Notes under the pieces: generated by a model
Database searches by the model: none
Told to the model about the DNA's origin: nothing
What the model saw: only the letters and a program-made list of their open reading frames with translations
Made by a program: the position numbers and the translations under genes
Shown: one piece after another, positions 14,643 through 30,658 of the stretch
Layout: the number at the start of each line of letters is the position of its first letter
How positions within the stretch are numbered: the first letter of the stretch is position 1
Source of the DNA: Mucilaginibacter tolerans
GTDB lineage: Bacteria > Bacteroidota > Bacteroidia > Sphingobacteriales > Sphingobacteriaceae
DNA: 64,000 bases
Direction of reading: 5' to 3'
NCBI RefSeq assembly: GCF_030519375.1
Contig: NZ_JAUMKB010000001.1
Coordinates: 186,001 to 250,000 of the forward strand

Positions 14643-15563
14643 TTGCACGACCTCAGGAAACAAATATTATCCACCATCGCATATTTCGATCTGTTTCACT
14701 ATCCGCTTACAGCGGAGGAGATATATCTATCTCTGCCTGTGAAGTGCGATACGGCCGATTTTGAATACGGGCTGAAATACCTGGTCATCGACAGGATGAT
14801 ATACCATTTCGATAAATTCTATGCGCTCAAAAACGAATACTTTTTAGTAGAACGCCGGTTGGAGGGGAACGCCAGGGCGGCAAAGCTAACTGACACGGCA
14901 AAAAAGGTAAGCAACTTGCTGGTCCGCTTTCCTTTTGTGCGGGGAATAGCTATTTCGGGGTCGCTTTCAAAGAATTTTGCCGATGAGGATTCTGATATCG
15001 ATCTGTTTATCATCACCGCAAAAAACAGGCTTTGGATTGCACGCACGCTGATGCACTGCTTCAAAAAGCTGACTTTCCTGGTTAAGCGTGAGCACTATTT
15101 CTGCATGAACTATTACATTGACGAAGAAGAACTGCAGATACGCGAAAAAAACATATATACTGCAATTGAAATTGCTACCCTGATACCCTTACATGGGGAC
15201 AGCACATTTGAACACTTTTATGCAGCCAACAACTGGACACGGAATTATTTACCGAACAAATATATGCGATTAAGTACGGCAAAAACGCTAAAACCCTCAT
15301 GGTTGAAGAAGGCTTTTGAATGGCTGTTTAGTAACCGCCTGGGAAATGCATCGGATAGTTTGCTGATGAGAATAACTGCTGAAAGGTGGGACAAAAAACG
15401 TCAGCAAAAGAAATTAAACATAAAAGGGCTGATCATGGGCATGGATACCGGTAAACATTATGCAAAACCCGATCCGAAAAACTTCCAGGAAAAACTGATC
15501 CTTAAATACCAGCTAAAACTTTCACAGATACTGGAGCAATGGGAAGGCAGTGCGGTGAATTAA
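14643..15563 (+). CDS. Nucleotidyltransferase-domain protein
   Basis: 306 residues with a TTG start (the next in-frame ATG would remove the winged-helix-like first 50 residues). The catalytic motif is 'SGSLSKNFADEDSDIDLFI', with GS at 106-107 and metal Asp 118 and 120, as in the MNT/Pol-beta nucleotidyltransferases. Similar proteins of about 300 residues occur in polysaccharide and radical SAM clusters; their substrate is unknown. It lies 29 bases after the ligase-like gene and its end overlaps the convergent methyltransferase by 4 bases. Confidence 0.75.
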   Translation: MHDLRKQILSTIAYFDLFHYPLTAEEIYLSLPVKCDTADFEYGLKYLVIDRMIYHFDKFYALKNEYFLVERRLEGNARAAKLTDTAKKVSNLLVRFPFVRGIAISGSLSKNFADEDSDIDLFIITAKNRLWIARTLMHCFKKLTFLVKREHYFCMNYYIDEEELQIREKNIYTAIEIATLIPLHGDSTFEHFYAANNWTRNYLPNKYMRLSTAKTLKPSWLKKAFEWLFSNRLGNASDSLLMRITAERWDKKRQQKKLNIKGLIMGMDTGKHYAKPDPKNFQEKLILKYQLKLSQILEQWEGSAVN

Positions 15564-16384
15564 TATTTCTTCCTCAGGGAAATAATATAATAGTCCCCGA
15601 TATACTTCCATGTCCATTGGGATTTTAGGCGGTCTTCGCACTTTTTAAGAAAAGAATAAGCTGATGGATGTTTTTTTGCAAAGCCTTCCACGTATGATGG
15701 TGGGACTATAGTACATAATCCTTCAATATTTAGTACCTCAAATTCAGGCTTCAATTTTTTGGTAATGTATGACGGATTATAGTACCAGCATTTAAAATAA
15801 TGCCCCTCTACGTGAGCTGTCCGGCCATTTGAACTAAAGAATCGCCTGAATGCCGTTCTAAATTTTCCTTTGAATAACAAAAGCGTTTCCCATAAACAGA
15901 ATTTTGGCATTATCACCAATGTCACCATACCTTTAGGTTTGAGAAGAGCAGGTAACGATGCTAACACCTTGTCCATCTCATTGGTACAATTTAACCCGGC
16001 GAAATTGGAAAAGATCAAATCATAAGGGCCTTTATTTTTAAGCTGGTGCAAAGCTGTGTAGGAACATAGCTCGTTGGTTATCCGGTCATTCAGCCCTTTT
16101 TCCCTAACCTTCTGCCGCAATTGTTCCTGCATGCCCGATGATATGTCTGTTGCATGAATACAATGTCCCTTACCAGCAAAGAAAATAGCGTCGTCGCCTG
16201 TACCGCTATTCAATTCCAGGATATTGCTGTTTTCCGGTAAATATTGCAGCACATGGTTCCTTACCCGATCGCGCTTGTATTGAATGATGGTATCGTTGCC
16301 GTATAAACCATCAAATACAACTGACTGCTCCGAAAAAGCTTCCGCAGCGTTAGTTTCGTTGATAGGCGATATAACCTGCTCCAT
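15560..16384 (-). CDS. Class I SAM-dependent methyltransferase
   Basis: 274 residues. Motif I is at 55-64 (ILELNSGTGD), with the acidic residue of motif II in 'IHATDIS' at about 77-83; both bind S-adenosylmethionine. The C-terminal part (about 170-274) is specific and basic. The start codon overlaps the stop of the upstream radical SAM gene (TAATG-type coupling), so the two enzymes probably act on the same molecule. The methyl acceptor is unknown. Confidence 0.85.
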   Translation of the reverse strand: MEQVISPINETNAAEAFSEQSVVFDGLYGNDTIIQYKRDRVRNHVLQYLPENSNILELNSGTGDDAIFFAGKGHCIHATDISSGMQEQLRQKVREKGLNDRITNELCSYTALHQLKNKGPYDLIFSNFAGLNCTNEMDKVLASLPALLKPKGMVTLVIMPKFCLWETLLLFKGKFRTAFRRFFSSNGRTAHVEGHYFKCWYYNPSYITKKLKPEFEVLNIEGLCTIVPPSYVEGFAKKHPSAYSFLKKCEDRLKSQWTWKYIGDYYIISLRKKY

Positions 16385-17853
16385 TACAATACCCTCTCCA
16401 GTCTTTTCAGTTTCAACTTCTCGATCATCGCAGCGGGGGTATAATAGAATACCGACAATGCTTTTCTGACGATTTTCGCATTAGCTTTCAGTGGCTTTTT
16501 GATCAGCTCAGCCAAACTGTTTTGCGCCAAATGCTGATGATAGTTCTGATGCACATACCGGTGCAACTGCTTGTAATAAGTTGGCGGAAAAGTGTTATGA
16601 AACATCAGCGCCATTTCGTCGGAATCGGTCCAATTGGTTTTGGTTTTCAGGTCGGCTTTTACACGATCATAAAAAACTGTTCCAGGCAGAGGGTAGGATA
16701 CTGAAATTCCAATCTCAAAGGGCAGCAATTCATTGATCATCCGTATCGTATTTTCAATATCTTCCTTTTGTTCGCCCGGGTAACCAAACTGGATAAAGAA
16801 CGACGGCTTGATGCCGTATTTTTTCATCAATAAGGTCGATTGGTGTATCTGCGCAATGGTGGTGCCTTTGTCCATCGCATCCAATATTTTCTGTGAGCCA
16901 CTCTCTGCCCCTATCCATACATTTTCGCACCCGGCGGCTGCAAGGGCCTTTACCAAATCTTCGTCAACCAATAAATCGGCACGTGATTGTATTTTGAAGC
17001 GTATTGTGAAATCTTCCTGTTGTATCAGTCTGCTAAACTCCTCTACCCAACCCGGCTTTAGACCGAATATGTCATCACAAAACCAGAGGTGATCCATGCC
17101 AAATTTCTCCTTCAGCATCCTGATCTCACAAACTACATTTTCAGGACTTCTCGAATTATAACGGTTACCATAGATCGGTTTAGCGCACCAGTTACATTTA
17201 AACGGACAGCCGCGCGTGGTACCAATATTGAGCGAAAAATAACCGACGTTTTTTAGCCAACGCTCTTTATAGGGCTTTATGTCGACCAAATCCCATGCAG
17301 GCAATGGCAAGCTATCCAGATCTTTCATCACCTGCCGGCCTACTGTTTTTACCGCTTTACCATCTTTCAAATAGGCCAGGCCTTGTATTGCCGAATAATC
17401 TGTTTCTCCGTCTTTAACCGCATTGACCAATTCCATCAATGTCATTTCTCCCTCGCCGATAATCACAAAATCAGCGCCTTCCAACAGGTATTTTTCAAAA
17501 CGGTCAGTTGAGTCTGAGCTGCAAACGATCACTTTACAGCCGCGTGCTTTTGCCTGTTTACTCATACTGAAAGCCGCTTGGCGCATATTGGTGAGGCACA
17601 TTTTGGTGAGATAGTTAAACCCATCATCGTAGATCACAAAAAAATCAGGAATGTGCTTTTCTAATTCCGGTTCAACCTCTTGCGGACTCGTGGCAAACAT
17701 GGTATCGAACAAGGCAACATCATATCCATTTTGCCTCATCTTAGCAGCGGCCAGCAAAGTCCCTAATGGTGGATAGGGTAAGCCTAACCCCCATTGTTTG
17801 GGATCGAACCGGAGAAAATAAGAATGGGTAAACAGGATGGTACTTTGCTGCAT
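16384..17853 (-). CDS. B12-binding-domain radical SAM protein
   Basis: 489 residues in the order cobalamin-binding-type Rossmann domain (about 1-150) then radical SAM barrel (about 205-410). The [4Fe-4S] motif C216-x3-C220-x2-C223 lies in 'RGCPFKCNWCAKP'. The classical DxHxxG of base-off cobalamin binding is not visible; BchE/HpnJ-like members also often lack it. 'GEGEMTLMEL' (133-142) is typical of this class. Such enzymes do methylations or ring rearrangements at unreactive carbons. It is followed with 1-base overlap by a methyltransferase. Confidence 0.88.
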   Translation of the reverse strand: MQQSTILFTHSYFLRFDPKQWGLGLPYPPLGTLLAAAKMRQNGYDVALFDTMFATSPQEVEPELEKHIPDFFVIYDDGFNYLTKMCLTNMRQAAFSMSKQAKARGCKVIVCSSDSTDRFEKYLLEGADFVIIGEGEMTLMELVNAVKDGETDYSAIQGLAYLKDGKAVKTVGRQVMKDLDSLPLPAWDLVDIKPYKERWLKNVGYFSLNIGTTRGCPFKCNWCAKPIYGNRYNSRSPENVVCEIRMLKEKFGMDHLWFCDDIFGLKPGWVEEFSRLIQQEDFTIRFKIQSRADLLVDEDLVKALAAAGCENVWIGAESGSQKILDAMDKGTTIAQIHQSTLLMKKYGIKPSFFIQFGYPGEQKEDIENTIRMINELLPFEIGISVSYPLPGTVFYDRVKADLKTKTNWTDSDEMALMFHNTFPPTYYKQLHRYVHQNYHQHLAQNSLAELIKKPLKANAKIVRKALSVFYYTPAAMIEKLKLKRLERVL

Positions 17854-17923
17854 CTTATATCAACTACGTTTGTAAAAGTTATTGGGTTGCCATGATGTTT
17901 AAAATATCAAAACGCATAGTCGG

Positions 17924-17990
17924 CTCACCCGGTCTTTGCTTCGCTTGACCACCCTCTTCACCGCAAGCGGTAAAAAGGGGCCAGGGTGAG
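17924..17990. repeat. Intergenic inverted-repeat element
   Basis: Outer arms CTCACCC (17924-17930) and GGGTGAG (17984-17990) enclose an inner hairpin ACCGC-AA-GCGGT (17960-17971). It lies in the 155-base gap between the radical SAM and GT39 genes, both on the minus strand. The composition resembles a common short intergenic palindrome of this bacterial group. Confidence 0.6.
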
Positions 17991-18008
17991 TCAACTCACC
18001 GCCCTGTT

Positions 18009-19484
18009 TCATTTCTTTATCCGGTAGACATTATAATTATACATACATCTGTCCAGGTAATACTCTTTCGCGACCAATTCATCAACAAACTGCCGCATAT
18101 CCTGGCTCACAAAATTGTGGTATTCAGCAAACAGAGGGACCAGTATCATTGCAGGTTTGTTCTTTTGCATATCACTATAAAACCGATCCTTGGCAAGTTG
18201 CGTCTGCGTTACGTTGAAATAAATGGTTGGTGATATTCTTTCAGAATATGCCTGCACCTGCGCGCCAAAACCAGCCACATAGACCATGTCTTGCGGAGAT
18301 GTATTGTCCCTTATCCACCATCCCAGTTTTTTACGTGATCCTTCATCAGGCTTATCATAAGGTTCGTGACAAGCGGTGTCCGGTTGACTTTTATCCCCTG
18401 AAAAGATTTTCTGTATGTTGAGCAAAGGCTCCAGCAGTTTGGGAAAGAATACCAGCCAGATAATAATTATCAACGGTTTGGCCGGAAGGCTAAATTGGTT
18501 TATCAAATAGGTTACACAGAGGGCACTCATAACAGACATTGCCGGCAATAATTCGCGCATGTGCAATGTTCCATAGATACCAACTATATTGATTCCGACG
18601 AATTCAAGAATAAGCCATAAACTGAACAGGTCAATCTTCTTTTTTATAAAGAAATACCCAAGCACGAAGGGGTAAAACAGGATGAGTTCTGAATAAAAAA
18701 ACTTATCCGAAAAATTCACCATTTTCCAAATCAGGCTGCGGTCGGTAGCGCTGCCTGATCCAAAATTGTCCACCAGGCCGTTGGTGATGATGCTATGGAT
18801 ATCGATCCCGGCCAAAAAACTGATGGCTAAAAACAGAGCAATACTGGCGGCTATTCCGGCAAAAAAAACAGGGATACTCATTCTGTTTCTTCGCAGTAAC
18901 GCGCAGGATATTGCGATGATACCCCAGACAGCAGATAACCGGAATGCCAATCCTAATCCTGCCATTAAACCACTGATAAAAAAATCCTTTTTATTTTGCG
19001 CGGTAACGAATTTAAAAGCGGCTATGATGATGAACACCATATCGTAGGTTTCGGTGAATGAAACATACCTGCCACCGGTGCCGTGCCAAAGCAACGATAA
19101 ACCGTAAAACGAAATAGCTAAAATGCCGGCCTGCTCACCCGCGATATGTTTGGCTAACTTGAATATATAATATATGCCAACGGATTGTACCAGTGTGCCC
19201 AGCACTCTTCCAAACCAATAGTTAACGCCGAAAAGTTTATCTGATAAACCGAAAACAGCAAATATCACGGGTGATTTATTGTCTACCCCACCGTTATAGG
19301 GAACCAGGCCATTCCTAAACCAGTTGCGCCCGATATATTGCCACATGGCTTCATCAAATGACAAGGCAAAGCCGTCCGTCAGCAGTGTGACCAGCAACTG
19401 CAGAATGGTAAGTAATACAATAAGGTGCAGAAACCCGGGTTTCCAGTTTTTGAGCATTTCTTCAATGTGAAGCCATGAATGCAA
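18009..19484 (-). CDS. GT39-type membrane glycosyltransferase (ArnT/PMT-like)
   Basis: 491 residues, about 11 membrane helices and a soluble C-terminal domain from about 375. The first external loop carries the acidic pair in 'SFDEAMWQYIGR' (about 43-54), the catalytic Asp-Glu of lipid-linked-sugar transferases of the PMT/ArnT clan. These enzymes use polyprenyl-phosphate sugars and act on the outer face of the inner membrane. It lies 6 bases after the radical SAM gene upstream in the same operon, so a lipid or glycan modified by the radical SAM set may be glycosylated here. Confidence 0.83.
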   Translation of the reverse strand: MHSWLHIEEMLKNWKPGFLHLIVLLTILQLLVTLLTDGFALSFDEAMWQYIGRNWFRNGLVPYNGGVDNKSPVIFAVFGLSDKLFGVNYWFGRVLGTLVQSVGIYYIFKLAKHIAGEQAGILAISFYGLSLLWHGTGGRYVSFTETYDMVFIIIAAFKFVTAQNKKDFFISGLMAGLGLAFRLSAVWGIIAISCALLRRNRMSIPVFFAGIAASIALFLAISFLAGIDIHSIITNGLVDNFGSGSATDRSLIWKMVNFSDKFFYSELILFYPFVLGYFFIKKKIDLFSLWLILEFVGINIVGIYGTLHMRELLPAMSVMSALCVTYLINQFSLPAKPLIIIIWLVFFPKLLEPLLNIQKIFSGDKSQPDTACHEPYDKPDEGSRKKLGWWIRDNTSPQDMVYVAGFGAQVQAYSERISPTIYFNVTQTQLAKDRFYSDMQKNKPAMILVPLFAEYHNFVSQDMRQFVDELVAKEYYLDRCMYNYNVYRIKK

Positions 19485-19490
19485 AACCTC

Positions 19491-20534
19491 TTACGGATTG
19501 ATCCGTGGCGACAGGTTTAAGGAACAAACACATTTTACACAGATACTGTTGGTAGCCATGTCCAATGTTTTTCTCCAGTTAATGGCATCATCACTGTTTA
19601 ATATGGTTGCAAGGGACGCATCCCTGATATTACCTATTGTGTCGTGAAAAAAGCAGGGCCTTACACTTCCATCTGCCTCGATCACAGTGGATACCCACGG
19701 CGCATTACATTTTTTATACGGGAAGGGGATCATTCCGTAAAATGCAGCATAGTAATGGTAAATATCCATCAGTTTTTGCTCCGATTCGGCGATAAAGCCA
19801 CCGTCGATATCATCTGCATAGTCGGTGATTATATTTTGGATAACGGCCTTCAGTTCGGGCAGTTCACTTTTTGATAGTAATATCTCATCCTGTCGCGGCT
19901 TTTCCCATGCAATTTGCCGGTTAAAGGCATGGCTGCTTACATCCGCAGGCAAAAAACTGATTTGATCCAGCTTCATCTGTTTAGCCTGTTCGATGATGGC
20001 TGTCCAATTCCAGAAATTAAGCCGGTGAATTACGGTACGGGCTGTGATGCGGTAATTCGGATCCAATGACCGGATATATTGTACCCCCTCCTTCAATTTA
20101 TGAAATGCCCCTGGTATATTGCGGATAGCATCGTGCAACTGCTGATCGCCATCCAAAGAAACGATGATATCATTTACCCATTCTACTAACTGCGGGGCAT
20201 GATTTTTAAGTGTTAACCCTGTCGTAAGCAGCGATACTTTGATATGTGCGTTTTTCAGAATCCGGCACAGGGCAAAGAAATTAGGATTGAGCAAAGCTTC
20301 ACCGCCTGACATGACCACCTGTTTTGTCCCGAATTGCTTTAGGGACGATAATAATCCGGAGATATCTTCTTCGGTAAGCTGTTTCAAATTCTTGTTATCT
20401 TTCCATATATCGCACATCACGCAACGGCAATTGCAAGCGCTATGCGGCATCAGCATCACAATAGGCAATGCCGATATGCGGTGCGTTTGCAGCGTACGGT
20501 AACGTTTATAAGTATGGGTAAGCGCCTGTAGCAT
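19491..20534 (-). CDS. Radical SAM protein with SPASM-like C-terminus
   Basis: 347 residues from the chosen ATG at 20534, which starts 2 bases after the upstream stop; an ATG 24 bases earlier would overlap that gene by 22 bases. The radical SAM cluster motif is C34-x3-C38-x2-C41 in 'SACNCRCVMCDIW'. The C-terminal part has 'CNAPWVS', 'DGSVRPCFFHD' and a final Cys cluster 'CVKCVCS', the layout of a SPASM/twitch domain holding extra Fe-S clusters. It lies between a methyltransferase and the GT39 gene. Substrate unknown. Confidence 0.87.
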   Translation of the reverse strand: MLQALTHTYKRYRTLQTHRISALPIVMLMPHSACNCRCVMCDIWKDNKNLKQLTEEDISGLLSSLKQFGTKQVVMSGGEALLNPNFFALCRILKNAHIKVSLLTTGLTLKNHAPQLVEWVNDIIVSLDGDQQLHDAIRNIPGAFHKLKEGVQYIRSLDPNYRITARTVIHRLNFWNWTAIIEQAKQMKLDQISFLPADVSSHAFNRQIAWEKPRQDEILLSKSELPELKAVIQNIITDYADDIDGGFIAESEQKLMDIYHYYAAFYGMIPFPYKKCNAPWVSTVIEADGSVRPCFFHDTIGNIRDASLATILNSDDAINWRKTLDMATNSICVKCVCSLNLSPRINP

Positions 20535-20536
20535 TG

Positions 20537-21274
20537 TTATTTCCTTATACAGACCCAATAAAATGGGTCCTTTTTAAAGATCAGGTTAAAGATGGTTGTC
20601 GGATCGAACAATATCTCGTATTTAAATCCCCAGAACTCGCTGATAGAATGATGGAAATAATGTTCGGCCATTTCGGGAATGCCCAAAGAAGCATAATATC
20701 TCAGACTCCGTTCGTTGGCTTTTTCCGTTTCGTCAGGCGTGTAAAACGGTGTATCAATCACATGCACTTCACCACCTTTTTTCAGCATAGCCAATGCCTG
20801 TTTCATCACATTAATAACCGACGGGAAGTATTGCAGCGACGCCGCAAAAACAATCACATCAAATTGTTCGCTCTCAAAAGTGCCGTCCGTAAAGCTGTCA
20901 TAAATGAACGCCAGGTTATCCTTTTTGAAAACCCGGTTTGCCTGGTCTATCTCCACCTGATTAATATCCAACCCTGTAACATGCGAATTGGGTATATTGG
21001 CCAATTTAGCCGACAGCCATCCATTGCCACAACCTACTTCGAGTATTTTCAGAGATTTGTGTTTCTTTATCAGATATTCAGTTAACCTTTCACTTGATCT
21101 TTTCCTGATCTTCCATTCATCGAAATAGATATGATCAATATCAGGCAAAAGCTGTAATTGTTCGTCGGTATAAATCCTCATCTCCTGCTGGCGCACAGCA
21201 ATATAAAGCTCTTCAAAATCAATCCTGGGCTCTTGAGAACGATTTTTTGCGGTATGCTTCACAGTCAGGTTCAA
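20537..21274 (-). CDS. Class I SAM-dependent methyltransferase
   Basis: 245 residues. SAM motif I is 'KILEVGCGNGWLSAKL' at 76-91, and motif II acidic residue is in 'VTGLDINQ' near 102. The pattern 'FDVIVFAASLQYFPS' matches the post-I/motif III region of Methyltransf_11-type enzymes. It sits 11 bases after a B12-type radical SAM gene and 2 bases before the SPASM-type radical SAM gene, in one minus-strand operon. The acceptor is unknown. Confidence 0.86.
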   Translation of the reverse strand: MNLTVKHTAKNRSQEPRIDFEELYIAVRQQEMRIYTDEQLQLLPDIDHIYFDEWKIRKRSSERLTEYLIKKHKSLKILEVGCGNGWLSAKLANIPNSHVTGLDINQVEIDQANRVFKKDNLAFIYDSFTDGTFESEQFDVIVFAASLQYFPSVINVMKQALAMLKKGGEVHVIDTPFYTPDETEKANERSLRYYASLGIPEMAEHYFHHSISEFWGFKYEILFDPTTIFNLIFKKDPFYWVCIRK

Positions 21275-21285
21275 TTTTATATTCG

Positions 21286-22788
21286 TTAAAATCCTTGTAT
21301 TTCAGGTTGGCGATAACGCCATACCTTATGCAGCAGCTTTATTTCGTATGGATAGTTATATATGCTGGTTCGGTAACGCAACCCGGCTACCGCCTTTATC
21401 AGTCTGCGTTTAAGGCTATTCAGCCTGATATCAGTGACAGTCGGGTAGGCTCCATTCAAAACGGTTTCAAAATTTCTTATTTTATCAATCATATCCGGGG
21501 TGAGCCATGGTGTAAGCGGGTTTTTGCGCATATCAAAATTCTCCCAGGCAGGGCTTATCCAGTCTTCCAGTACCTGCGGATATTTGAAACCACTGGCCAA
21601 TACCTGTTTATATAATTCCGAACCCTCGGTCGGCACAGGGCTATAAGTGTATATCACAATTTCAGCGTTGGGATTTACAGCTTTTACCTTTTTTATAAAG
21701 TCGATCTCAAAATCTATTTGCGCCTGGACCTGCTCCGTTGTTGGTGCAGGTGTACCCAGAACAAATGAGTATTCAGGGATAATGTCAAACTTCTTTAATC
21801 GTTCAGCAAAAGTGAGTATCTGCTCACCGGTCTGGGTACCGCCTTTGTCTAATTGCTCCAGGATATGGTCGTTACCACTTTCGGCGCCAAAGAAGATGCA
21901 TTTACATCCAGATTCGCGTATCGCAGCCAAAGATGAATCTTTAAACTTATCCATCGTGTCAATACGCGCCATGCCCCACCAGCTCATTTTTTCCGGTTTG
22001 ATCAGGTTGGCAAACTCAACGGTACGTTTTTCAGAAACAAAAAAATTATTGTCATGAAACTCAACGGCTGTTGCTCCCCATTTGTCCTTAATGTATTTTA
22101 TATCATTATAAACCGCTTGTGCCGATTTTGCTTTCCACCGGGCCTCAAAAATTGGCACAACAGCGCAAAACGAACAAGTAAAAGGACATCCGATGCTGGA
22201 ATGATAGGCCATTGTTTTTTCGCCCAGGTAAGTTTTGCCCAGCAGTCTGCTGATAGGGTAAAATTCATTCAGCTTATCGTATGGCAAAGGCGGTAAAGTA
22301 TCCTGCTCCATCAGATCTTCTTTTGGCGTTTTGATGATCTTTCCGTCAGTGGCCTGGTAGATCAAATTTTTGATAAACTCGAAAGGCTTGTCGTTCTCCA
22401 ATGCATCTATCAATGCCGGGAAAGCATGATCACCAGGTCCATTAATGACAAAATCGACATAGTGTGAGTATAAAACTGTTTCCGATTGGGTCGACGGAAA
22501 GTATCCTCCCCAAATCATTTTGGTATGAGGGTAACGCTCCTTAATAGACTTTGCAATCGGAATAGCCTGCCTTAACTGCGGACCGGGCATCACTGTAAAA
22601 CCCAGGTATCTGAAATTACCGGTATCCAGGTAGCTTTCGATTTTCCTCAGCGGGTCGGCTTCGCAATTACCATCAACTATTACCCAATCGTGCTTACCTT
22701 CAATGGAGGCTGCAATACTTAATATGGAGTTCGGGATGCGATGTTTCGCATCGGCGCTTTTGGGATTAAATAACAGTATTTTGCTCAT
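21286..22788 (-). CDS. B12-binding-domain radical SAM protein
   Basis: 500 residues. An N-terminal cobalamin-type domain (about 1-155) is followed by the radical SAM barrel; the cluster motif is C201-x3-C205-x2-C208 in 'GCPFTCSFCAVVP'. 'INGPGDHAFPALIDAL' and 'GAESGNDHILEQLDKG' are typical of the BchE/HpnJ-like class. It is the first gene of the minus operon; upstream it faces a divergent methyltransferase across a 212-base gap with a nested inverted repeat. It is a distant relative, not a close copy, of the protein at 16384-17853. Confidence 0.88.
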   Translation of the reverse strand: MSKILLFNPKSADAKHRIPNSILSIAASIEGKHDWVIVDGNCEADPLRKIESYLDTGNFRYLGFTVMPGPQLRQAIPIAKSIKERYPHTKMIWGGYFPSTQSETVLYSHYVDFVINGPGDHAFPALIDALENDKPFEFIKNLIYQATDGKIIKTPKEDLMEQDTLPPLPYDKLNEFYPISRLLGKTYLGEKTMAYHSSIGCPFTCSFCAVVPIFEARWKAKSAQAVYNDIKYIKDKWGATAVEFHDNNFFVSEKRTVEFANLIKPEKMSWWGMARIDTMDKFKDSSLAAIRESGCKCIFFGAESGNDHILEQLDKGGTQTGEQILTFAERLKKFDIIPEYSFVLGTPAPTTEQVQAQIDFEIDFIKKVKAVNPNAEIVIYTYSPVPTEGSELYKQVLASGFKYPQVLEDWISPAWENFDMRKNPLTPWLTPDMIDKIRNFETVLNGAYPTVTDIRLNSLKRRLIKAVAGLRYRTSIYNYPYEIKLLHKVWRYRQPEIQGF

Positions 22789-22815
22789 TATAACAGGTTC
22801 CGAAACATTATAAAA

Positions 22816-22888
22816 CAGATGGATAAACAGCAGCAGATCAGCGACCTGCTGCCAATCTATTAACCCCTATCAACTTAGTATCCATCTG
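22816..22888. promoter_or_regulatory. Nested perfect inverted repeats in a divergent promoter region
   Basis: CAGATGGATA (22816-22825) and TATCCATCTG (22879-22888) are a perfect 10-bp inverted repeat. Inside it GCAGCAG (22830-22836) pairs with CTGCTGC (22846-22852). It lies 28 bases upstream of the minus-strand radical SAM start and could be an operator or a folded leader. Confidence 0.45.
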
Positions 22889-23000
22889 AATTACGAAATC
22901 GAAACTAATGCAGTTGCCTGAACAGCGAAATAAAAATTTAGTTGGGCAACCAATAGTTATTAAGTAGCGTAAATGCTATCAAAACCCTTATATAAACGAA

Positions 23001-23750: not shown

Positions 23751-24864
23751 TGTTAGGGTGGCCTCAACGGGTCAGAAGGTTAGTATCAGGGTAAAGGGCA
23801 GTAAAATCGCACAAGTTTTGCCCGGCCATTTTCATGACAAAACGGATGAATTGAACCTGGCTTTGGACGACACCATTGTTTTCCCCGGATTGATCAACTC
23901 TCACGATCACCTTGAGTTCAATTTATTCCCTCCGCTTGCGGGAAGGACATTCAAAAACTATACAGAATGGGGTGTATATATACACCTGAAGCATAAAGAC
24001 GTGATCGACCGGGTACTGCAGATACCTGAGAAATTGCGTATTCAATGGGGCATTTATAAAAATCTGCTCTGTGGAGTGACAACCGTGGTGAATCATGGAA
24101 AAAAGATCAATGTATCAAATGATCTGATCACCGTTTACCAGGAATGCCAATCTATCCATTCTGTGCATTTTGAAAAAAGATGGCGGTTTGCATTGAATAA
24201 CCCGCTTAAAAAGAGCTTACTGGCTGTGGTTCATAGTGGCGAAGGCACGGATGCAGCAGCCTCCAGCGAGATCGATCTGCTAATTAAAAACAACTTATTT
24301 AAACGGTCCATAGTTGCAGTACACGGTGTCGCCATGAATGAAAAGCAGGCAAAGCAATTTAAAGCATTGGCCTGGTGCCCGGAATCGAACTATTTTTTGC
24401 TCGGCAAAACGGCACCTGTAGACTGCCTGAAGGACCATCTGCCTATACTTTTCGGAACAGATTCAACACTTACCGGTGATTGGAATATCTGGAACCATAT
24501 CCGCAAGGCTAAGCAAACGGAACTACTATCCGGACAAGAGCTTTATGAAAGCCTGACGATCAACCCTGCCTCCACTTGGAGACTAAGAGCAGGAGACATT
24601 GAAGAAGATAGGGATGCCGACCTGGTATTGTCAAAAGCGGAATCATTTTTTACAACCGATCCGCAGAATATACTATTGGTGATACATAAAGGTAATATCA
24701 GTTTGTTTGACGAAGCTTTACTTCCACAACTCACAGCCATAAATACCACCGAGTATAGTTTGATCAGTGTGGGCAACAGCAACAAATATGTGAAAGGCGA
24801 TTTACCCGCGCAAATGACCAGGATCAAACAATATTACCCTGAAGCGGTTTTCCCCATTAATTAA
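23737..24864 (+). CDS. Amidohydrolase family protein
   Basis: 375 residues of the metal-dependent amidohydrolase superfamily (AtzA/TrzN/chlorohydrolase-like). H56-D-H58 in 'INSHDHLEF' is the first metal pair, a further His lies in 'VAVHGVAM' (about 195), and the metal Asp is in 'FGTDSTLTG' (about 242). The composite beta-sandwich wraps both ends ('LSNVRV' start, 'GDIEEDRDADLVL' near 290). These enzymes usually deaminate or hydrolyse ring C-N bonds, an unusual activity in a glycan-type cluster. The start overlaps the methyltransferase by 14 bases. Confidence 0.83.
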   Translation: MILSNVRVASTGQKVSIRVKGSKIAQVLPGHFHDKTDELNLALDDTIVFPGLINSHDHLEFNLFPPLAGRTFKNYTEWGVYIHLKHKDVIDRVLQIPEKLRIQWGIYKNLLCGVTTVVNHGKKINVSNDLITVYQECQSIHSVHFEKRWRFALNNPLKKSLLAVVHSGEGTDAAASSEIDLLIKNNLFKRSIVAVHGVAMNEKQAKQFKALAWCPESNYFLLGKTAPVDCLKDHLPILFGTDSTLTGDWNIWNHIRKAKQTELLSGQELYESLTINPASTWRLRAGDIEEDRDADLVLSKAESFFTTDPQNILLVIHKGNISLFDEALLPQLTAINTTEYSLISVGNSNKYVKGDLPAQMTRIKQYYPEAVFPIN

Positions 24865-24875
24865 TTACCCTGGTT

Positions 24876-25886
24876 ATGATGCCGGCCCAAAGAATAGGAA
24901 CAAAACTATATAGGGAAGCCAAATATTTTGGCAGAGACATCAGCCATTTGCTGGGCTTTGATGAAGGCTTTTTCCGCAATGCCAGGGGAAGCCGTATTGT
25001 GATCTATCATGGTGTGTGCCTCACCGACCACACCCGCTTTAATCCCATTTTTATAAAACTGAAAACGCTTGAAAAGCACTTTCAATTTTATAAAAAATAC
25101 TTCAATGTGGTTTCTCTAAACGATTATTACGAGCAGAAATTCAGTGAGGATAAGTTCAACATTTGCATCACCTTTGATGATGGTTATGCAAATAATCATA
25201 AGTATGTATTATATTTATTAGCGAAATATCAATTACCCGCTACATTTTTTATCACCGCGATAAGAAATGAGGGATTTGATATTTTGTGGAACGACTTTTT
25301 GGGCATGGTTCAGGTGTATGGGCCTAAACAGTTGTATTACAATGATCAATGGTTTGAAAAAAATCGTTTTAATCAGTATTTTTCCGAACAAAACGGTGAA
25401 AAATTCGTAGAAATGCTTCGTTCGGGTGGCTTTGATGTTAAGCAAGAGATGATGAATCTATTATACCCGCTGGCACCTTACCGGGACAGCAAACCTGACA
25501 ATGAAGACTACTGGCTGCAAATGACCCCACAGCAGATCAGGGAGTTATCGTTATCACCGTTTACAACAATAGGTTCTCATGGTTATTATCACAACGACCT
25601 GGCACGAATAAATATTAATGATGCTTCGCAAGAAATGGTCCGCTCCAAGCAATACCTCGAAAATATAATAGATCAGCCCGTAAACAGCCTGGCGTTCCCA
25701 TATGGTTCGTATAATAGGGGTGTGATCCGTGCGTCTAAAAATGCAGGATACAGCCAATTGCTTTGTACGGACTTCAACTCGAGCGAAGATCTTACAGATA
25801 CTACCATGAGGGAACGGTTTACGGTAAACCCGTTCATCAATACCCTTAATCAGATGCGTGCAACAGTAACCCGGAGATATGAGTGA
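24876..25886 (+). CDS. Polysaccharide deacetylase (NodB domain)
   Basis: 336 residues. The NodB motif 1 is 'ITFDDGYANNH' with D101 and D102 (base and metal ligand), and motif 2 is H-x3-H in 'GSHGYYHNDL' (about 234-238). The final motifs are in 'LAFPYGSYN'. It would remove N-acetyl groups from a hexosamine of a lipid-linked or polymeric glycan. No signal peptide is seen, which suggests a cytosolic substrate. It follows the amidohydrolase by 11 bases and overlaps the GNAT gene by 8. Confidence 0.87.
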   Translation: MMPAQRIGTKLYREAKYFGRDISHLLGFDEGFFRNARGSRIVIYHGVCLTDHTRFNPIFIKLKTLEKHFQFYKKYFNVVSLNDYYEQKFSEDKFNICITFDDGYANNHKYVLYLLAKYQLPATFFITAIRNEGFDILWNDFLGMVQVYGPKQLYYNDQWFEKNRFNQYFSEQNGEKFVEMLRSGGFDVKQEMMNLLYPLAPYRDSKPDNEDYWLQMTPQQIRELSLSPFTTIGSHGYYHNDLARININDASQEMVRSKQYLENIIDQPVNSLAFPYGSYNRGVIRASKNAGYSQLLCTDFNSSEDLTDTTMRERFTVNPFINTLNQMRATVTRRYE

Positions 25887-26829
25887 GATAATCCAGATGA
25901 AGGGGTACCATATTGAAAGGTTGAGCAAGGCAAATATAAATGCCCTGGAAAAGTTATATCACGAGGTATACGGCCGCTTTAATCCTCCCGGTTACTATAG
26001 AAAAAAATACGACACTTCTTATACAGGTGTCGAGCATGTGGGCTACATTGCTTTTAATGAGCGGCATAACCCGATAGCCTACTATGGCGTTATCCCTTGT
26101 TTTATCCGGTATGGCGATCAACTGTACCTGGCTGCCCAATCGGCTGATACCATGACACATCCCAAGTATCAATTTAAAGGGCTGTTCGTGCAACTGGCCA
26201 ATCTCACTTTCGACTTGTGTATAGAAGAAGGGATAAGTCTGGTATTTGGGTTCCCGAATCAAAACTCGCTGCATGGCTTCCTGGTAAGGTTGAAATGGCA
26301 AATGACCGAAACACTGGCTTATTATAATATACCTACCGGTATAGTTTCGTTGGAAGGCATTACAAGAAGAATCCCGTTTCTGAAGAAAGTGTATGAGCAT
26401 TATCAGGAATATGTTCTGAGAGACTACATATTGCCCAGAAAGGGTATTGAAAACGCGGTATTTAAAGAGGGTTTTGCCGGGGTGAACAGGAACGCGCTTT
26501 ACCTGAATTATAAAATGTACAGTGACACGCGTGTAATAAGAATAGGTGATGCCATTTTATGGATAAAAATAAAAAACGGGCTGATTGTAGGTGATGTAAG
26601 TTGCCCGTCGGGTGAGTTTGACAGCATGCTGATCGACCTGAAAAAACTGGCCATGAAGCTTGGGTTGAAGAATATACAATTTCACACCAGTCACCAGACA
26701 AGACTATCATGGCTGCTTTCGTCCAGGTATCCGGCTGAGCCTTCATTTTATGTACTTTTTAAAGATCTGGGTTCACGTATCCCGTTGGATAAGATTAAAT
26801 TCACCTACGCAGACGTAGACACCTTCTGA
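25879..26829 (+). CDS. GNAT family N-acyltransferase
   Basis: 316 residues. The first half has a GNAT fold: 'GYIAFNERHNPIAYYGVIPC' strands, then 'ADTMTHPKYQFKGLFVQLAN' where the acetyl-CoA pyrophosphate loop lies, then 'GFPNQNSLHGFLVRLKWQ'. This long type is common in polysaccharide clusters. Directly after the deacetylase, it could re-acylate the amine freed by that enzyme; that pairing is inference. Overlap with the deacetylase is 8 bases. Confidence 0.78.
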   Translation: MSEIIQMKGYHIERLSKANINALEKLYHEVYGRFNPPGYYRKKYDTSYTGVEHVGYIAFNERHNPIAYYGVIPCFIRYGDQLYLAAQSADTMTHPKYQFKGLFVQLANLTFDLCIEEGISLVFGFPNQNSLHGFLVRLKWQMTETLAYYNIPTGIVSLEGITRRIPFLKKVYEHYQEYVLRDYILPRKGIENAVFKEGFAGVNRNALYLNYKMYSDTRVIRIGDAILWIKIKNGLIVGDVSCPSGEFDSMLIDLKKLAMKLGLKNIQFHTSHQTRLSWLLSSRYPAEPSFYVLFKDLGSRIPLDKIKFTYADVDTF

Positions 26830-26854
26830 TGCTTGTTGCCTTTAAATTCACATT

Positions 26855-27949
26855 ATGAAATATGTTTTTGCCGGATATGTTTATACGGGCGATTATAACT
26901 TACCCCAGGCCTGGCTCGAACGAATAAAGGCATATACCGGCATACTGGAAGCATTGGCCAAACAAAACATCGTAATAAGCATCCAGCAAATAGATTACGA
27001 AGGTCAATATGATAAGAACGGCGTTAAATATTATTTTAAAAGGTTCGGATCTCCTGCCTATTTCCCTTCTCCGTTACATGGTTTTATTAAAAGTTTGAAA
27101 CCTGATGTAGTGATCGTACAAAGCTTTAACCATCCGTTTCAGGTAATACAGTTGCGCTTTTTACTTGGAAAAGGCACAAAGGTTATCGTTCACAATCATG
27201 CTGAACTGCCATTTACCGGGATTAAAAAGTATCTGCAAAGATTGGCCGACAAATATGTAAATGCTTATTTATTTGCCTCGCATAATATGGGTCTCGGATG
27301 GGTGCAGAAAGGGAATATTGGTTCAGCCAATAAAATACACGAGGTGATGGAGGTATCATCAGCATTTGCGCCAATGGATAAGGAGGTTGGCAGGCAAAAA
27401 ACTGGCGTGACTGAAGGGTTAATCTTTCTTTGGGTTGGACGGCTTAATGCCAATAAAGACCCGCTGACAGTATCAAAAGCATTTCTTGAATTTGCTGCGG
27501 CGAAACCATCGGCAAGACTATACATGATCTATCACACTGAGGAATTGCTAAACGATGTAAAAGAGATGATAAATAAATCTCCGCAAAAAAACGCAATAAC
27601 CTTGATAGGCAGAGTTCCACATGATGAACTGCAATATTGGTTCAATAGCGCTGATATTATTTTATCCGGCTCGCATTATGAAGGCAGCGGAACAGCGGTT
27701 TGTGAGGCAATGTCGTGTGGATGTATGCCTATAGTTACGGATATTGACTCATTCAGAATGATAACCAATAATGGCAAATGCGGTCTGTTATATGAGGCGG
27801 GAAATGCAGCAAAATTATTGGAAGCGCTAAATCAAACCAGCAAAATAAGCATCGCTCAAAAGCAAAAAGCTTCACTGGAATATTTCAGATCAAATCTCTC
27901 GTTTGAGGCCATTGCTTCACGAATTCAGGAGATAGCGGGATCGCTGTAA
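26855..27949 (+). CDS. Glycosyltransferase family 4
   Basis: 364-residue GT-B enzyme. The donor domain starts at about 190 ('LIFLWVGRLNANKDPLTVSK') and the EX7E motif is in 'GSHYEGSGTAVCEAMSCG' at about 273-287. An N-terminal acceptor domain (about 1-180) with 'NHAELPFTGIKKYLQR' is less conserved. It is the last gene of the plus-strand run and its 3' end overlaps the convergent GT4 by 25 bases. Linkage unknown. Confidence 0.9.
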   Translation: MKYVFAGYVYTGDYNLPQAWLERIKAYTGILEALAKQNIVISIQQIDYEGQYDKNGVKYYFKRFGSPAYFPSPLHGFIKSLKPDVVIVQSFNHPFQVIQLRFLLGKGTKVIVHNHAELPFTGIKKYLQRLADKYVNAYLFASHNMGLGWVQKGNIGSANKIHEVMEVSSAFAPMDKEVGRQKTGVTEGLIFLWVGRLNANKDPLTVSKAFLEFAAAKPSARLYMIYHTEELLNDVKEMINKSPQKNAITLIGRVPHDELQYWFNSADIILSGSHYEGSGTAVCEAMSCGCMPIVTDIDSFRMITNNGKCGLLYEAGNAAKLLEALNQTSKISIAQKQKASLEYFRSNLSFEAIASRIQEIAGSL

Positions 27950-29001
27950 TCAAATAGCTTCATGATTTTACTGCAAGTATCTTCAATTACATAGGGGGCG
28001 ATGTTCCCATGATTGCAAAACGGGCCTTCCAGTATTTTTTTTATCATATTCACCATATCATCGGGCGTTTTGGCAAAATGCCAATTCTTTATGGGCAGGT
28101 CCATCGGTTTTACAAAACTTACCACCTGTGCACCCGCATACAAGGCTTCCAGGCAAACCACGCCCAGGCCCTCATACGATGAAGGATGCACAAACATTTT
28201 TGCCCGCTGCATCAAAGCCAAAACAGCAGTATGGGGCAACTCGCCTGTCAGTTCTATATTTTTTTCCAAACGATAGTCTTTTATCAGCATATCCAATAAA
28301 TGCCGCTCCGGTCCGTCACCACAAATAACTGCGCGGATATCGGGAAAGTAAATGTGAAGTGTGCCGATCATATTAATCAGCAGAGAATAAAGCTTTAATG
28401 GTATGAACGATCCAACACCCAATATGTCTATATCCCGTTTCTTAGCAGGTTCGCCGAACAGTGCCGGATCGATCCCCACCGGGATAACATGAGCCGGCAT
28501 TATAGCGTAATTATTTTTAACCTCGTTCGCTATAAAATCCGACAAAGCAATAAGGTTTTCAGCCCTGGGTTTTACCCACCTGAAATATTTATTACCTGGT
28601 TTGGCATCCTGTCCTAATATCCAGCAGAAATGTTTCAGATTTTTTTTTTCCGCAAACTTATCTGCAATCAAGGCACAATCGCCCATCCAAAAACTTAGCA
28701 GACCAACAATTTGAAATTGCTTATTTAATCTTCGTAATGTTAGCCATACCCGCAGCCAGTTGTTTAAGCGTATCAGCCCTCCCCTGTTTGCCCCGCCAAA
28801 AGAAATAACTGATACATTGTTCCATTGATAGGATACAGAATGAAAAGGGTACTCGAATGTTAATACTATAATATTTAAGGCTGGATATAACGCCTTCAGG
28901 TTCCTTACAAAAACTTGCTGCGGAGGAATACAGGTGCTATCGGCTTCGTTTTTGGGGAAACCGGGGCTCAGTATGACCAGTGTTTTTTTCAGTTCAATCA
29001 T
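27925..29001 (-). CDS. Glycosyltransferase family 4
   Basis: 358-residue GT-B enzyme. The donor site motif is 'PSSYEGLGVVCLEALYAG' (about 276-293) with the two Glu of EX7E; 'ILGVGSFIPLKLYSLLI' begins the second domain. 'ILSPGFPKNEADSTCIPPQQ' at the N-terminus is typical of Bacteroidota GT4 enzymes. It overlaps the upstream ABC exporter gene by 8 bases and, tail to tail, the plus-strand GT4 by 25 bases. Confidence 0.9.
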   Translation of the reverse strand: MIELKKTLVILSPGFPKNEADSTCIPPQQVFVRNLKALYPALNIIVLTFEYPFHSVSYQWNNVSVISFGGANRGGLIRLNNWLRVWLTLRRLNKQFQIVGLLSFWMGDCALIADKFAEKKNLKHFCWILGQDAKPGNKYFRWVKPRAENLIALSDFIANEVKNNYAIMPAHVIPVGIDPALFGEPAKKRDIDILGVGSFIPLKLYSLLINMIGTLHIYFPDIRAVICGDGPERHLLDMLIKDYRLEKNIELTGELPHTAVLALMQRAKMFVHPSSYEGLGVVCLEALYAGAQVVSFVKPMDLPIKNWHFAKTPDDMVNMIKKILEGPFCNHGNIAPYVIEDTCSKIMKLFDYSDPAIS

Positions 29002-30658
29002 CCAGCGAAACTATTTTATTGCAGAAAGACAATCCTGTTTTGTTATGAGTTATGAACAAGATCATTTTGCCATTTTGTGTAAGTTGTTTTAATTTTCCGA
29101 GTATCTCATTTTCACTCTGCTGGTCCATTTCGCCAAAAGGTTCATCCATTATCAGCAGGTCAAAGTCATGATACAAGGCCCTCGCCAGCATAATCCGCTG
29201 ACGTTGTCCGCCGCTCAGATTTTTACCGTTTTCGGTAATTATTCTTTCAATGCCCTCCGGATACTGGCTGATCAGGTTATCCAATCCACTTGTTATGATT
29301 ACTTCATCCAATCGGTTATCATCATAGTCGTTTTCCTGGAGAGTAATGTTACTTTTTATAGAATCATGCAGCAAAAAAGGTTGTTGTTTGATGTAGGATA
29401 TCCGGTTGTGCCAGCCAAATCTGTCTTTTGCATTGGTGGTCTGATTATTAACGTAAACTACTCCGTCTTCCTGTTCAATAAAGCCAAGTAGAATATGAAT
29501 CAGCGTTGTTTTACCGCGACCCGAACCGGCTGACAAACCAATAAAATCGCCGGCGATTATTTCAAGGCTCATCCCGTTTAAAATGAAGCGATCATGATAT
29601 CTGTAGTGTATTTTTTCAAGACGAATTGACCGGAGATGTTCTGTGTGCTGGAGGGTTACATTGTTTGTTACCTGGTGGTCTTTCAACAGGTCATCCAAAA
29701 CAAACTCATAGGTTTTCATCTGTCCGGCACTATTGATAATCTTTACAATACCGGGTATAATTTTATAAGCGGCGGCCAAAAATATGCTGATGGTAAGCAG
29801 ATCGATAGCCGGAGTATCAGCCGACCAATTATTGATCAGTATAAGGATAAAAAAACCGAGAATAGCGAAGACTTCAATCAATCGCGAAGGCAGATATTGT
29901 AATGATTGCTGTGTGCAGATATAGTGGTTTAACTGTTGCTGCTGATGATAATAGCGCCCTACGAAGAAATCGCCTTTATCATAGATGTTACTTTCGATAT
30001 AGCCTGATAAAGCCTCTTTCAAATTTTTTAGTGTATCGGCGTTCGTCTGTTTGATATGCTGACGGACACTATTATATCGTTTTTTTAAAATCCAGCCTAA
30101 TGAAACGACTGCAGGCATCAGCAGAATAAATAATAACAGGAATAGTGTGGCGTGGTACAATAAGATAGCCGCTAGCGCAAAGATCACCAATACGCTTTGA
30201 GAAATAATCTGCTGAAAATTGGTCAGGATATAATGGCTGAATTCGATGGGTTGATTGCTGATCTTTCGGATGTAAACTGCCGAGTCAATATTAACAAAGC
30301 TTAGATAGTCCTTTTTTAAAAATTGCCTAATACCTTTTTCAGACAATCGCGTTGCAGTATTATAAATAAAACTATAACGGGCTGACGCGATCCAATAAGC
30401 AACCATGTTTTTTATACCAAACAGTATAAAAAACAAAGTAATGAATAACACTGATTGCTGATCTCTTAGCGAAGGCGGCAGCCAGGAAGTATAATGGGGC
30501 ACCGAACTTTTAACATAAAAATTGATAACCAGGACGGTTAAACCAAGAAATGCAATATCAAGCGCGCTGATTAGTATATCAAAAAAGATGAGCAGGAACA
30601 GTTTTGCCCGCTCTTTCTGATCCAGAACATTTAATATGCCTGATAAAAATCGCACCAA
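28994..30658 (-). CDS. ABC exporter, fused permease and ATPase (MsbA/PglK-like)
   Basis: 554 residues: six membrane helices (about 15-310), then the ATPase. Walker A is 'SAGSGRGKTTL' near 373-381, signature 'LSGGQRQRIMLARAL' near 482, Walker B 'LLIMDEPFGE' near 503. Half-transporters of this size next to glycosyltransferases flip lipid-linked oligosaccharides (PglK) or lipid A (MsbA). Since the first cluster already has a Wzx flippase, this one probably serves the radical SAM cluster. It overlaps the GT4 by 8 bases. Confidence 0.88.
   Translation of the reverse strand: MVRFLSGILNVLDQKERAKLFLLIFFDILISALDIAFLGLTVLVINFYVKSSVPHYTSWLPPSLRDQQSVLFITLFFILFGIKNMVAYWIASARYSFIYNTATRLSEKGIRQFLKKDYLSFVNIDSAVYIRKISNQPIEFSHYILTNFQQIISQSVLVIFALAAILLYHATLFLLLFILLMPAVVSLGWILKKRYNSVRQHIKQTNADTLKNLKEALSGYIESNIYDKGDFFVGRYYHQQQQLNHYICTQQSLQYLPSRLIEVFAILGFFILILINNWSADTPAIDLLTISIFLAAAYKIIPGIVKIINSAGQMKTYEFVLDDLLKDHQVTNNVTLQHTEHLRSIRLEKIHYRYHDRFILNGMSLEIIAGDFIGLSAGSGRGKTTLIHILLGFIEQEDGVVYVNNQTTNAKDRFGWHNRISYIKQQPFLLHDSIKSNITLQENDYDDNRLDEVIITSGLDNLISQYPEGIERIITENGKNLSGGQRQRIMLARALYHDFDLLIMDEPFGEMDQQSENEILGKLKQLTQNGKMILFITHNKTGLSFCNKIVSLDD

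Follow-up and report, generated by a model that had tools for sequence, protein, structure and literature searches.

Gene content and layout of the locus

Positions 14643-30658 of a 64,000-nucleotide stretch of the Mucilaginibacter tolerans genome (the window, on contig C11 of a 5.2-Mb genome that is 100% complete by estimate) carry a dense set of genes for radical S-adenosylmethionine (SAM) enzymes, methyltransferases, glycosyltransferases and an exporter, referred to here by the labels of Table 1. The locus is read here as one for a polysaccharide, joined by a new radical SAM module with a probable tailoring role, whose core consists of NTase, MT1-rSAM1, SPASM-(MT2)-rSAM2 and the pair of MT3 and the amidohydrolase AmH. 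An earlier sequence-only reading of the same DNA had listed the genes, and every one of them is present: Pfam agrees with the earlier labels, all open reading frames (ORFs) are open and intact, and the motifs comprise CxxxCxxC in all three radical SAM proteins, HxH, HxxE and GTD in AmH, and GS...DxD in NTase.

The tight packing noted earlier holds as well, with gaps of -25 to +25 nt except for 155 nt between rSAM1 and GT39 and the 212-nt divergent region. The genes do not form a single operon, as four strand blocks were found (plus strand to 15563, minus strand 22788-15560, plus strand 23001-27949, minus strand 30658-27925). The proposed extent stands for the gene set and falls short of the full locus, which continues upstream to 6022, where the plus-strand block closed by NTase begins. 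No cobalamin riboswitch was found, with zero Rfam matches at gathering score in 6000-31000.

Table 1. Features of the locus, with window positions, strand and basis of assignment (TMD-NBD, transmembrane and nucleotide-binding domains)
Feature	Position	Strand	Basis
GT2, upstream part of locus	6022-6822	+	Pfam Glycos_transf_2, 71.1 bits
Wzx/MATE-type flippase, upstream part of locus	6850-8259	+	Pfam Polysacc_synt, 57.1 bits
Putative Wzy-like large protein, 569 aa	8444-10153	+	author's reading, as a second polymerase or ligase; zero Pfam or NCBIfam matches
GT2	10143-11105	+	
GT4	11114-12250	+	
DUF1972-GT4	12186-13322	+	
Wzy_C/O-antigen ligase protein, Wzy-like	13294-14613	+	Wzy_C, 62.2 bits
NTase, winged helix and Pol-beta nucleotidyltransferase	14643-15563	+	PF01909, 26.2 bits (cut-off 21)
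MT1, class I methyltransferase	15560-16384	-	Pfam
rSAM1, B12-type radical SAM protein, own clade	16384-17853	-	Pfam, tree
GT39/PMT_2-like membrane glycosyltransferase, optional	18009-19484	-	PMT_2/GT39, 41.6 bits
SPASM, radical SAM/SPASM protein	19491-20558	-	Pfam
MT2, class I methyltransferase	20537-21274	-	Pfam
rSAM2, B12-binding radical SAM protein, own clade	21286-22788	-	Pfam, tree
Divergent intergenic region between the two main blocks, 212 nt	22789-23000	none	
MT3, class I methyltransferase	23001-23750	+	Pfam
AmH, amidohydrolase resembling deaminases of 5'-substituted adenosines	23737-24864	+	profile, structure model
NodB-type polysaccharide deacetylase, optional	24876-25886	+	PF01522, 84.8 bits
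GNAT acyltransferase, optional, deacetylase partner	25879-26829	+	Pfam
GT4a glycosyltransferase	26855-27949	+	Pfam
GT4b glycosyltransferase	27925-29001	-	Pfam
ABC exporter, PglK/MsbA-like, fused TMD-NBD	28994-30658	-	Pfam, NCBIfam

Conservation and co-inheritance of the module

Relatives of the module were collected by an rSAM2-keyed scan of 84,980 species genomes, which gave 87 relatives. The best 80 of these 87, 16 further loci and the window, less two duplicates (G116, equal to L094, and G014, equal to L097), make up 95 unique loci; the duplicates remain in counts given per 97 or 96 rows. The thresholds for orthologues were 40% query coverage and an identity of 30%, raised to 45% for rSAM1, rSAM2 and SPASM. 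Since the rSAM2 scan supplied 80 of the 95 loci, this protein and its near neighbours are over-represented, and all presence counts are lower bounds because many loci end at contig ends or at 10 kb.

The nearest named relatives by rSAM2 lie in Mucilaginibacter (Sphingobacteriaceae, Bacteroidota), and rSAM1 and rSAM2 occur in several named strains of this genus. M. gossypiicola and M. oryzae are examples in which the module is complete. A search for the set in other genomes, suggested by the sequence-only reading, found that it recurs with its order largely kept over the 95 loci, in Mucilaginibacter, Pedobacter, Pinibacter, other Chitinophagaceae and Dyadobacter. The core genes are frequent (rSAM2 in 93, rSAM1 84, MT1 81, MT3 81, SPASM 80, AmH 78, NTase 70 and MT2 62); the counts for the other genes are GT4b (66), GT4a (63), the ABC exporter (54), GNAT (31), the NodB-type deacetylase (28) and GT39 (18). 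GT39 (18/95) and the deacetylase-GNAT pair (28/95) are optional.

Several genes travel as pairs. MT1 and rSAM1 stand together in 81 of the 95 loci, MT1 never without rSAM1 and rSAM1 without MT1 in three, and a 4-nt overlap is the commonest arrangement (39 of 79 same-strand pairs). MT3 and AmH co-occur in 76 loci and overlap by 14 nt in 30 of 76 same-strand pairs. The deacetylase was never found without GNAT (together in 28 loci), nor SPASM without rSAM2, in a set most of whose loci were picked via rSAM2.

Genome surveys extend the picture to the genus (149 genomes), the family (121) and the phylum (296). Within the genus, rSAM2 occurs in 92 genomes, all of which carry rSAM1 too, and rSAM1 and AmH occur in 98 each: both are present in 97, each is alone once, and neither is present in 50 (Fisher p about 2e-37, a value inflated by the shared ancestry of the genomes). 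Independent scattering of the genes in relatives, which the sequence-only reading had raised as a point that would count against a unit, is therefore not what is seen, with rSAM1 and AmH together in 97 genomes and apart in two. AmH was detected in six genomes of the family survey and rSAM2, at 71-100% identity over its full length, in five. The phylum survey gave an rSAM2 match at E 1e-30 or better in 19 of its genomes, 11 of them from other families at 47-64% identity over most of the protein, with one at a contig end. Among the three proteins surveyed over the genus, rSAM2 changes most slowly (74-96% identity where whole, against 64-90% for rSAM1 and 48-77% for AmH). Pairwise distances of the block proteins correlate (Spearman 0.46-0.89, 382-1843 pairs), most weakly for rSAM2, the protein that changes least; this fits joint inheritance, and shared species history could give the same pattern. 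Together, the evidence supports a co-inherited biosynthetic unit in a glycan setting rather than a chance assembly.

The block also appears beyond its family. Dyadobacter frigoris (Spirosomataceae) carries it from GT2 and wzyB via NTase as far as GT4b; GT39 is missing, and no ABC gene was recognised in the stretch covered. Its rSAM2, which shares 87-89% identity with several Mucilaginibacter-branch members, is nested in that branch in a quick tree with Shimodaira-Hasegawa-type approximate likelihood ratio test (SH-aLRT) support only, and its other module proteins are closest to Mucilaginibacter-type loci at 53-79%. The rSAM2 of Pedobacter sp. (L105), from the same family as Mucilaginibacter, is likewise nested in that branch. 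These relationships strongly suggest that most of the block was transferred between families, and the Dyadobacter module was apparently acquired in this way.

In the author's reading, the block comprises three sub-units, namely NTase/MT1/rSAM1, SPASM/rSAM2 with MT2, and MT3/AmH, plus optional decorations: GT39, the deacetylase-GNAT pair, and a protein with a sub-threshold flavin-reductase-like match. This last protein, of about 304-328 aa, lies near AmH and GT4a in 35 rows out of 96, a count that includes a single duplicate (for example L118, 7004-7963), and is absent between AmH and GT4a in the window; it might donate electrons or carry out some unrelated modification. Natural variants were seen. 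Six genomes of the genus have rSAM1 without rSAM2, and the regions of five were read, G482 being left out: SPASM is missing along with rSAM2 in G089, G450, G498 and G525, and G517 retains a SPASM protein of 46% identity. G525 (L144) and G089, which lack rSAM2 and SPASM, keep the remaining core, so that the chemistry could be approached by strain comparison ahead of genetics. Among distant relatives the arrangement is looser, with G350 holding rSAM2, NTase, rSAM1 and MT1 in a single run. The module seems to decay in some genomes. A broken rSAM2 was seen in G534 (L147, same contig as L131), where the reading frame is interrupted, and in G025 (L036/L037), where fragments only are present.

Enzymes of the module and their relatives

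By sequence and tree, rSAM1 and rSAM2 represent two separate uncharacterised clades of B12-type radical SAM proteins. The radical SAM core of both exceeds the Pfam cut-off; rSAM2 adds an N-terminal B12-binding domain above cut-off (46.3 bits), and the corresponding match in rSAM1 reaches 25.1 bits against a cut-off of 32.1. In a tree of 33 sequences, including two HpnJ and ten rSAM2 rows, each forms its own clade with support of 100/100. They do not look like recent duplicates, although the rejection of a single clade is moderate rather than firm because the p value of the approximately unbiased test (p-AU) is 0.023.

Among NCBIfam models, HpnJ ranks first for rSAM2 (122.3 bits) and second for rSAM1 (145.5 bits), and the hopanoid-tailoring genes for a glycosyltransferase (hpnI), a B12-type radical SAM protein (hpnJ) and a deacetylase (hpnK) are adjacent in Mycetohabitans, much as genes of these kinds are here. 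A hopanoid-type or other lipid pathway, in which an HpnJ-like enzyme contracts the ring of a glucosamine placed by a glycosyltransferase and deacetylated, as in HpnI-HpnK-HpnJ, is nevertheless very unlikely. Both scores are far under the HpnJ cut-off (TIGR03471, 577.6 bits), blastp identity to HpnJ is 24% for rSAM2 and 28-29% for rSAM1, and joining rSAM2 with HpnJ in a single clade is 74.7 log-likelihood units worse (p-AU 0.0005). HpnK is a YdjC-type deacetylase; the deacetylase of the window belongs to PF01522, is optional and was not found in 67 of 95 loci, and hopanoid genes were not recognised in the block. BchE (TIGR02026) was rejected as well, with 157.4 bits for rSAM1 and 86.1 for rSAM2 against a cut-off of 481.35. 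The radical SAM proteins thus do not match hopanoid synthesis, which the sequence-only reading had named as a danger to its claim: membership of HpnJ and of BchE is rejected by scores, and that of HpnJ also by the tree.

The closest solved structure for both rSAM1 (81 bits) and rSAM2 (40 bits) is 6fd2 (AprD4), an enzyme of apramycin synthesis that acts on a sugar substrate. AprD4 works without cobalamin. Unlike a true AprD4, rSAM1 scores 91.6 bits against the AprD4 model, below the cut-off of 500, and an aminoglycoside pathway was not recognised in the block. For SPASM, the closest solved structure is the cytosylglucuronate decarboxylase 7vob (45.6 bits). These nearest solved relatives hint, weakly, at sugar chemistry.

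Additionally, several radical SAM proteins with methyltransferases and an ABC exporter are a common layout of clusters for ribosomally synthesized and post-translationally modified peptides (RiPPs), in which radical SAM enzymes modify a small ribosomal peptide that the ABC protein exports. All these components are present, and RiPP B12 radical SAM models do match, if far under cut-off. Against this, 832 small ORFs of 20-119 aa from the gaps in the loci examined include no family found in more than two loci. In 6 of 76 loci, rSAM2 and MT3 stand 54 nt or less apart, and no peptidase domain appeared in the Pfam scan of the exporter. A RiPP cluster is therefore highly improbable.

AmH (375 aa; model with a predicted local distance difference test (pLDDT) score of 94.7) fits the fold and mononuclear metal site of cytosine-deaminase-type amidohydrolases, with H56, H58, H166, E169, H196 and D242 invariant in 37 sequences. 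In the profile search, chains of TM0936 rank first and second and a deaminase of 5'-methylthioadenosine and S-adenosylhomocysteine (MTA/SAH) third. In the VIA comparison, its model resembles MTA/SAH and adenosine deaminases including TM0936 at Z 33.5-34.5 (best row 4f0s, Z 34.5, root-mean-square deviation (rmsd) 2.8, 340 aligned) and aminofutalosine deaminase at Z 31.6. The modelled likeness to deaminases of MTA/SAH, 5'-deoxyadenosine and aminofutalosine spans Z 31.4-34.5 and includes the metal and HxxE residues, with identity of 17-19% in the deaminase rows. AmH remains under the NCBIfam deaminase cut-offs, its best score being 43.5 bits against 320 for PRK08418, the aminofutalosine deaminase family. 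DadD of Methanocaldococcus deaminates SAH, and a homologue from Thermotoga is an MTA/SAH deaminase (PMC10978960).

Because six enzymes of the cluster use SAM, a role for AmH in clearing their by-products, or in processing an adenosylated intermediate, is proposed. The nucleosidase repertoire of the genome would leave room for a clearance role: a futalosine hydrolase, an AMP nucleosidase and an inosine/guanosine phosphorylase score over cut-off, and no MTA/SAH nucleosidase does so among the four PNP_UDP_1 proteins. Alternatively, AmH may hydrolyse or deaminate a glycan-linked residue itself, a serious possibility, if short of probable. Its family is broad, and enzymes of the type of the atrazine chlorohydrolase TrzN, which have this metal site as well, score nearly as well or better; AmH also changes faster than rSAM1 and rSAM2, as if tracking a varying substrate, and in several distant relatives no AmH was seen next to rSAM2. 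On the other side, the profile search and VIA rank deaminases of 5'-substituted adenosines first, and the best NCBIfam model is the aminofutalosine deaminase family.

NTase gave an AF2 model with pLDDT 91.7 that aligns with ANT(4') 1kny at Z 8.4 (rmsd 3.2, 113 aligned). Its function could not be read from the fold, as ANT(4') stands among unrelated winged-helix proteins of similar Z in the VIA rows above Z 8. Foldseek gave zero PDB matches at E 0.001 or better, and the best profile matches to PDB sequences had E 0.5 and 0.75. The claim for NTase is therefore limited to its two-domain make-up. The exporter earlier described as the cluster's own is PglK-like, with PglK (NF050066) the best of 141 models, but at 192.5 bits it lies below the PglK cut-off of 1000, and a Wzx-type flippase stands about 20 kb away in the same locus. 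The deacetylase scores 36.4 bits against NodB itself (TIGR04243, cut-off 240) and is a PF01522 deacetylase at 84.8 bits. The earlier proposal that an acetyl group is removed and the amine re-acylated needs qualifying, as it draws on the deacetylase and GNAT, which form an optional cassette (28 of 95 loci).

A stand-alone lipid-linked or secreted small molecule, for example aminoglycoside-like or an aminocyclitol, exported by the ABC protein beside incidental polysaccharide neighbours, would accord with several of these features: the AprD4 likeness of both B12-type radical SAM proteins, the deacetylase with GNAT, the ANT(4')-like domain of NTase (at a Z common for chance) and an ABC exporter in 54 of 95 loci. 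It is unlikely, since many loci have Wzy and glycosyltransferase genes next to the module, whether on one side or the other, and the two GT4 genes are often part of the block. Moreover, no ABC gene was found in 41 of the 95 loci, some of which end at contig ends.

Polysaccharide setting, proposed pathway and known systems

The window contains a Wzx flippase, a Wzy_C protein and six GT2/GT4 genes, and similar genes adjoin the module in relatives: wzyB in 48 of 97 rows and DUF1972-GT4 in 49 of 97 (window and two duplicates included, most flanks being 10 kb), with a sugar transferase of the Bac_transf type near the module in 17 of 96 relatives' rows. Since a Wzx/Wzy-like locus that starts at 6022 lies directly beside the module, surface-polysaccharide tailoring is the most likely role. 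The sequence-only reading had proposed a lipid-linked, modified small molecule or glycan; the glycan setting stands, and the Wzy-like genes favour a polymer over a small molecule. The favoured reading, held with moderate confidence, is that the genes form a tailoring module, inherited as a unit and apparently mobile, next to a surface-polysaccharide locus of the Wzx/Wzy type. About eight genes, including those for three radical enzymes and three methyltransferases, are inherited together in soil bacteria and probably make an unusual altered sugar. The glycan-tailoring role is the firm part of this reading, beside the directly observed genes, conserved order, co-occurrence and adjoining polysaccharide genes; the chemistry of the individual steps and the function of AmH are put forward as proposals.

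In the proposed sequence of events, GT2/GT4 enzymes would build a lipid-linked oligosaccharide, on one sugar or cyclitol residue of which rSAM1 and the SPASM-rSAM2 pair may perform radical C-H chemistry such as C-methylation, deoxygenation or ring alteration. O- or N-methyl groups would come from MT1-MT3, an N-acetyl could be exchanged for another acyl group where the deacetylase and GNAT are present, and NTase may attach a nucleotide that activates or caps the residue. The unit would be flipped by Wzx, the PglK-like ABC protein or both, GT39, where present, might add a sugar on the periplasmic side, and the Wzy-like proteins would polymerise or ligate the unit. For AmH, the most likely role would be to deaminate the 5'-deoxyadenosine and SAH that the six SAM-using enzymes leave behind, or else an intermediate bearing an adenosyl group.

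Several observations weigh against the tailoring module and the steps assigned to it. The OPX genes of the genome lie on contigs C1, C16, C22 and C27 and its single Bac_transf match on C22, away from C11, in a priming-transferase test that covered Bac_transf, with other kinds of priming transferase outside the search. Nucleotide-sugar synthesis genes were not recognised in the module, a Wzy-type polymerase and an O-antigen ligase are indistinguishable here, and the protein at 8444-10153 has no Pfam or NCBIfam match. The likeness to AprD4 and cytosylglucuronate decarboxylase amounts to just 40-81 bits. The core is not strictly obligate, because distant relatives have rSAM2 without AmH (G152, G350, G291, G200, G402, G384 and L130); G402 also lacks MT1 and rSAM1 at the cut-offs used, and MT3 was not seen in G450, G498 and G517. 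The substrate class of AmH is not fixed, because TrzN is its top Foldseek match and reaches Z 31.4 in VIA. Finally, by-product removal by AmH can be no general need, because the genome encodes SAH hydrolase and 50 of the 149 genus genomes have neither rSAM1 nor AmH.

A more specific version of the tailoring reading supposes a dedicated radical SAM sugar-remodelling pathway, with two new B12-type subfamilies, SPASM and a built-in 5'-deoxyadenosine/SAH deaminase, carried as one inter-family cassette; a C-modified or ring-altered sugar would be made on the lipid carrier, and the deaminase would let the six SAM-using steps complete. This version is doubtful. If AmH were such a deaminase, a radical SAM pathway outside core metabolism would be seen to have its own enzyme for clearing by-products. 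According to a preprint, reactions other than methylation are known for few B12-dependent radical SAM enzymes, in which the part played by cobalamin is speculative (PMC13142503). rSAM1 and rSAM2 form two uncharacterised clades with a fixed partner set, in a likely carbohydrate setting.

Compared with described systems, the locus shares a Wzx flippase, a Wzy_C protein, a GT2/GT4 set and optional acyl or methyl decorations with Wzx/Wzy loci for O-antigen, capsule or exopolysaccharide (EPS), and differs in its three radical SAM genes, NTase and adenosine-deaminase-type amidohydrolase, and in having the OPX and Bac_transf priming genes on other contigs. The earlier statement that no described system has this composition is upheld within the open PMC papers searched for clusters or glycans of this kind, by titles and the starts of abstracts, none of which describes the gene set; subscription papers lay outside this scope. 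In the available part of a paper on the EPS genes of Mucilaginibacter pedocola (PMC6260751), the words "radical SAM" are absent.

The companion claim that polysaccharide clusters rarely carry this radical SAM load proved too strong, as a glycan-type locus on a Solidesulfovibrio plasmid has four annotated radical SAM genes and one on a Lawsonia plasmid has two. A plasmid of the deltaproteobacterium Smac51 (L139, 9619-17536) carries a row of hypothetical genes, with CxxxCxxC in five of six tested, near perosamine synthetase and asparagine synthase genes. Like the module, these loci (Smac51 by motif only) have at least two radical SAM genes in the company of genes for glycosyltransferases or sugar acids, and those of Lawsonia and Smac51 include class I methyltransferase genes; unlike it, they have different gene sets, and their radical SAM proteins are 23-32% identical to rSAM1 or rSAM2. 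Plasmid loci with several radical SAM genes thus make the principle wider than had been supposed, and a description of such loci was not met in the literature search. In the Lawsonia intracellularis plasmid locus (L159, 2455-15078), the two radical SAM genes are accompanied by GT2 genes and by six genes annotated as class I methyltransferases. The 33-sequence tree places the B12-type radical SAM protein of this locus as sister to HpnJ (100/99), so an HpnJ-like enzyme may act on a glycan there.

A unit of a moaA-like radical SAM gene and a B12 radical SAM gene occurs on Streptomyces pFRL6 and Calothrix plasmid 5, and its B12 protein is the sister of rSAM2 (98/96) among the 33 sequences sampled, at 26-27% identity. 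Its neighbours differ from those of rSAM2, being genes for an LD-carboxypeptidase, a tRNA-ligase-like protein and a short-chain dehydrogenase/reductase (SDR), and a shared SPASM partner was rejected, as the moaA-like protein shows no detectable similarity to SPASM. The same set, with the LD-carboxypeptidase, tRNA-ligase-like protein, a small protein and the SDR, spans 10790-16471 in the Streptomyces locus (L140) and 7880-13372 in the Calothrix locus (L141), and looks like a natural-product cluster.

The flanks of the locus hold other functions. At 533-5765, upstream, lie genes for a LacI-type regulator, a Rieske protein, DUF5777, YceI, a protein without Pfam match and a sigma-70-type factor. 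Downstream, 30823-36794 carries an SDR, an IlvD/Edd-type dehydratase, a peptidase-like protein, a second SDR and an amidohydrolase-2-like gene, and looks like an adjoining sugar-acid catabolic operon (the two SDRs by scan, the others by the author's reading). The SDR at 30823 and IlvD at 31767 were excluded from the module because they are present in just 3 of 97 locus rows, window included. In one relative (L059, 13261-13470), a small ORF near the NTase end, common to L058 only, is of antitoxin type by the author's reading.

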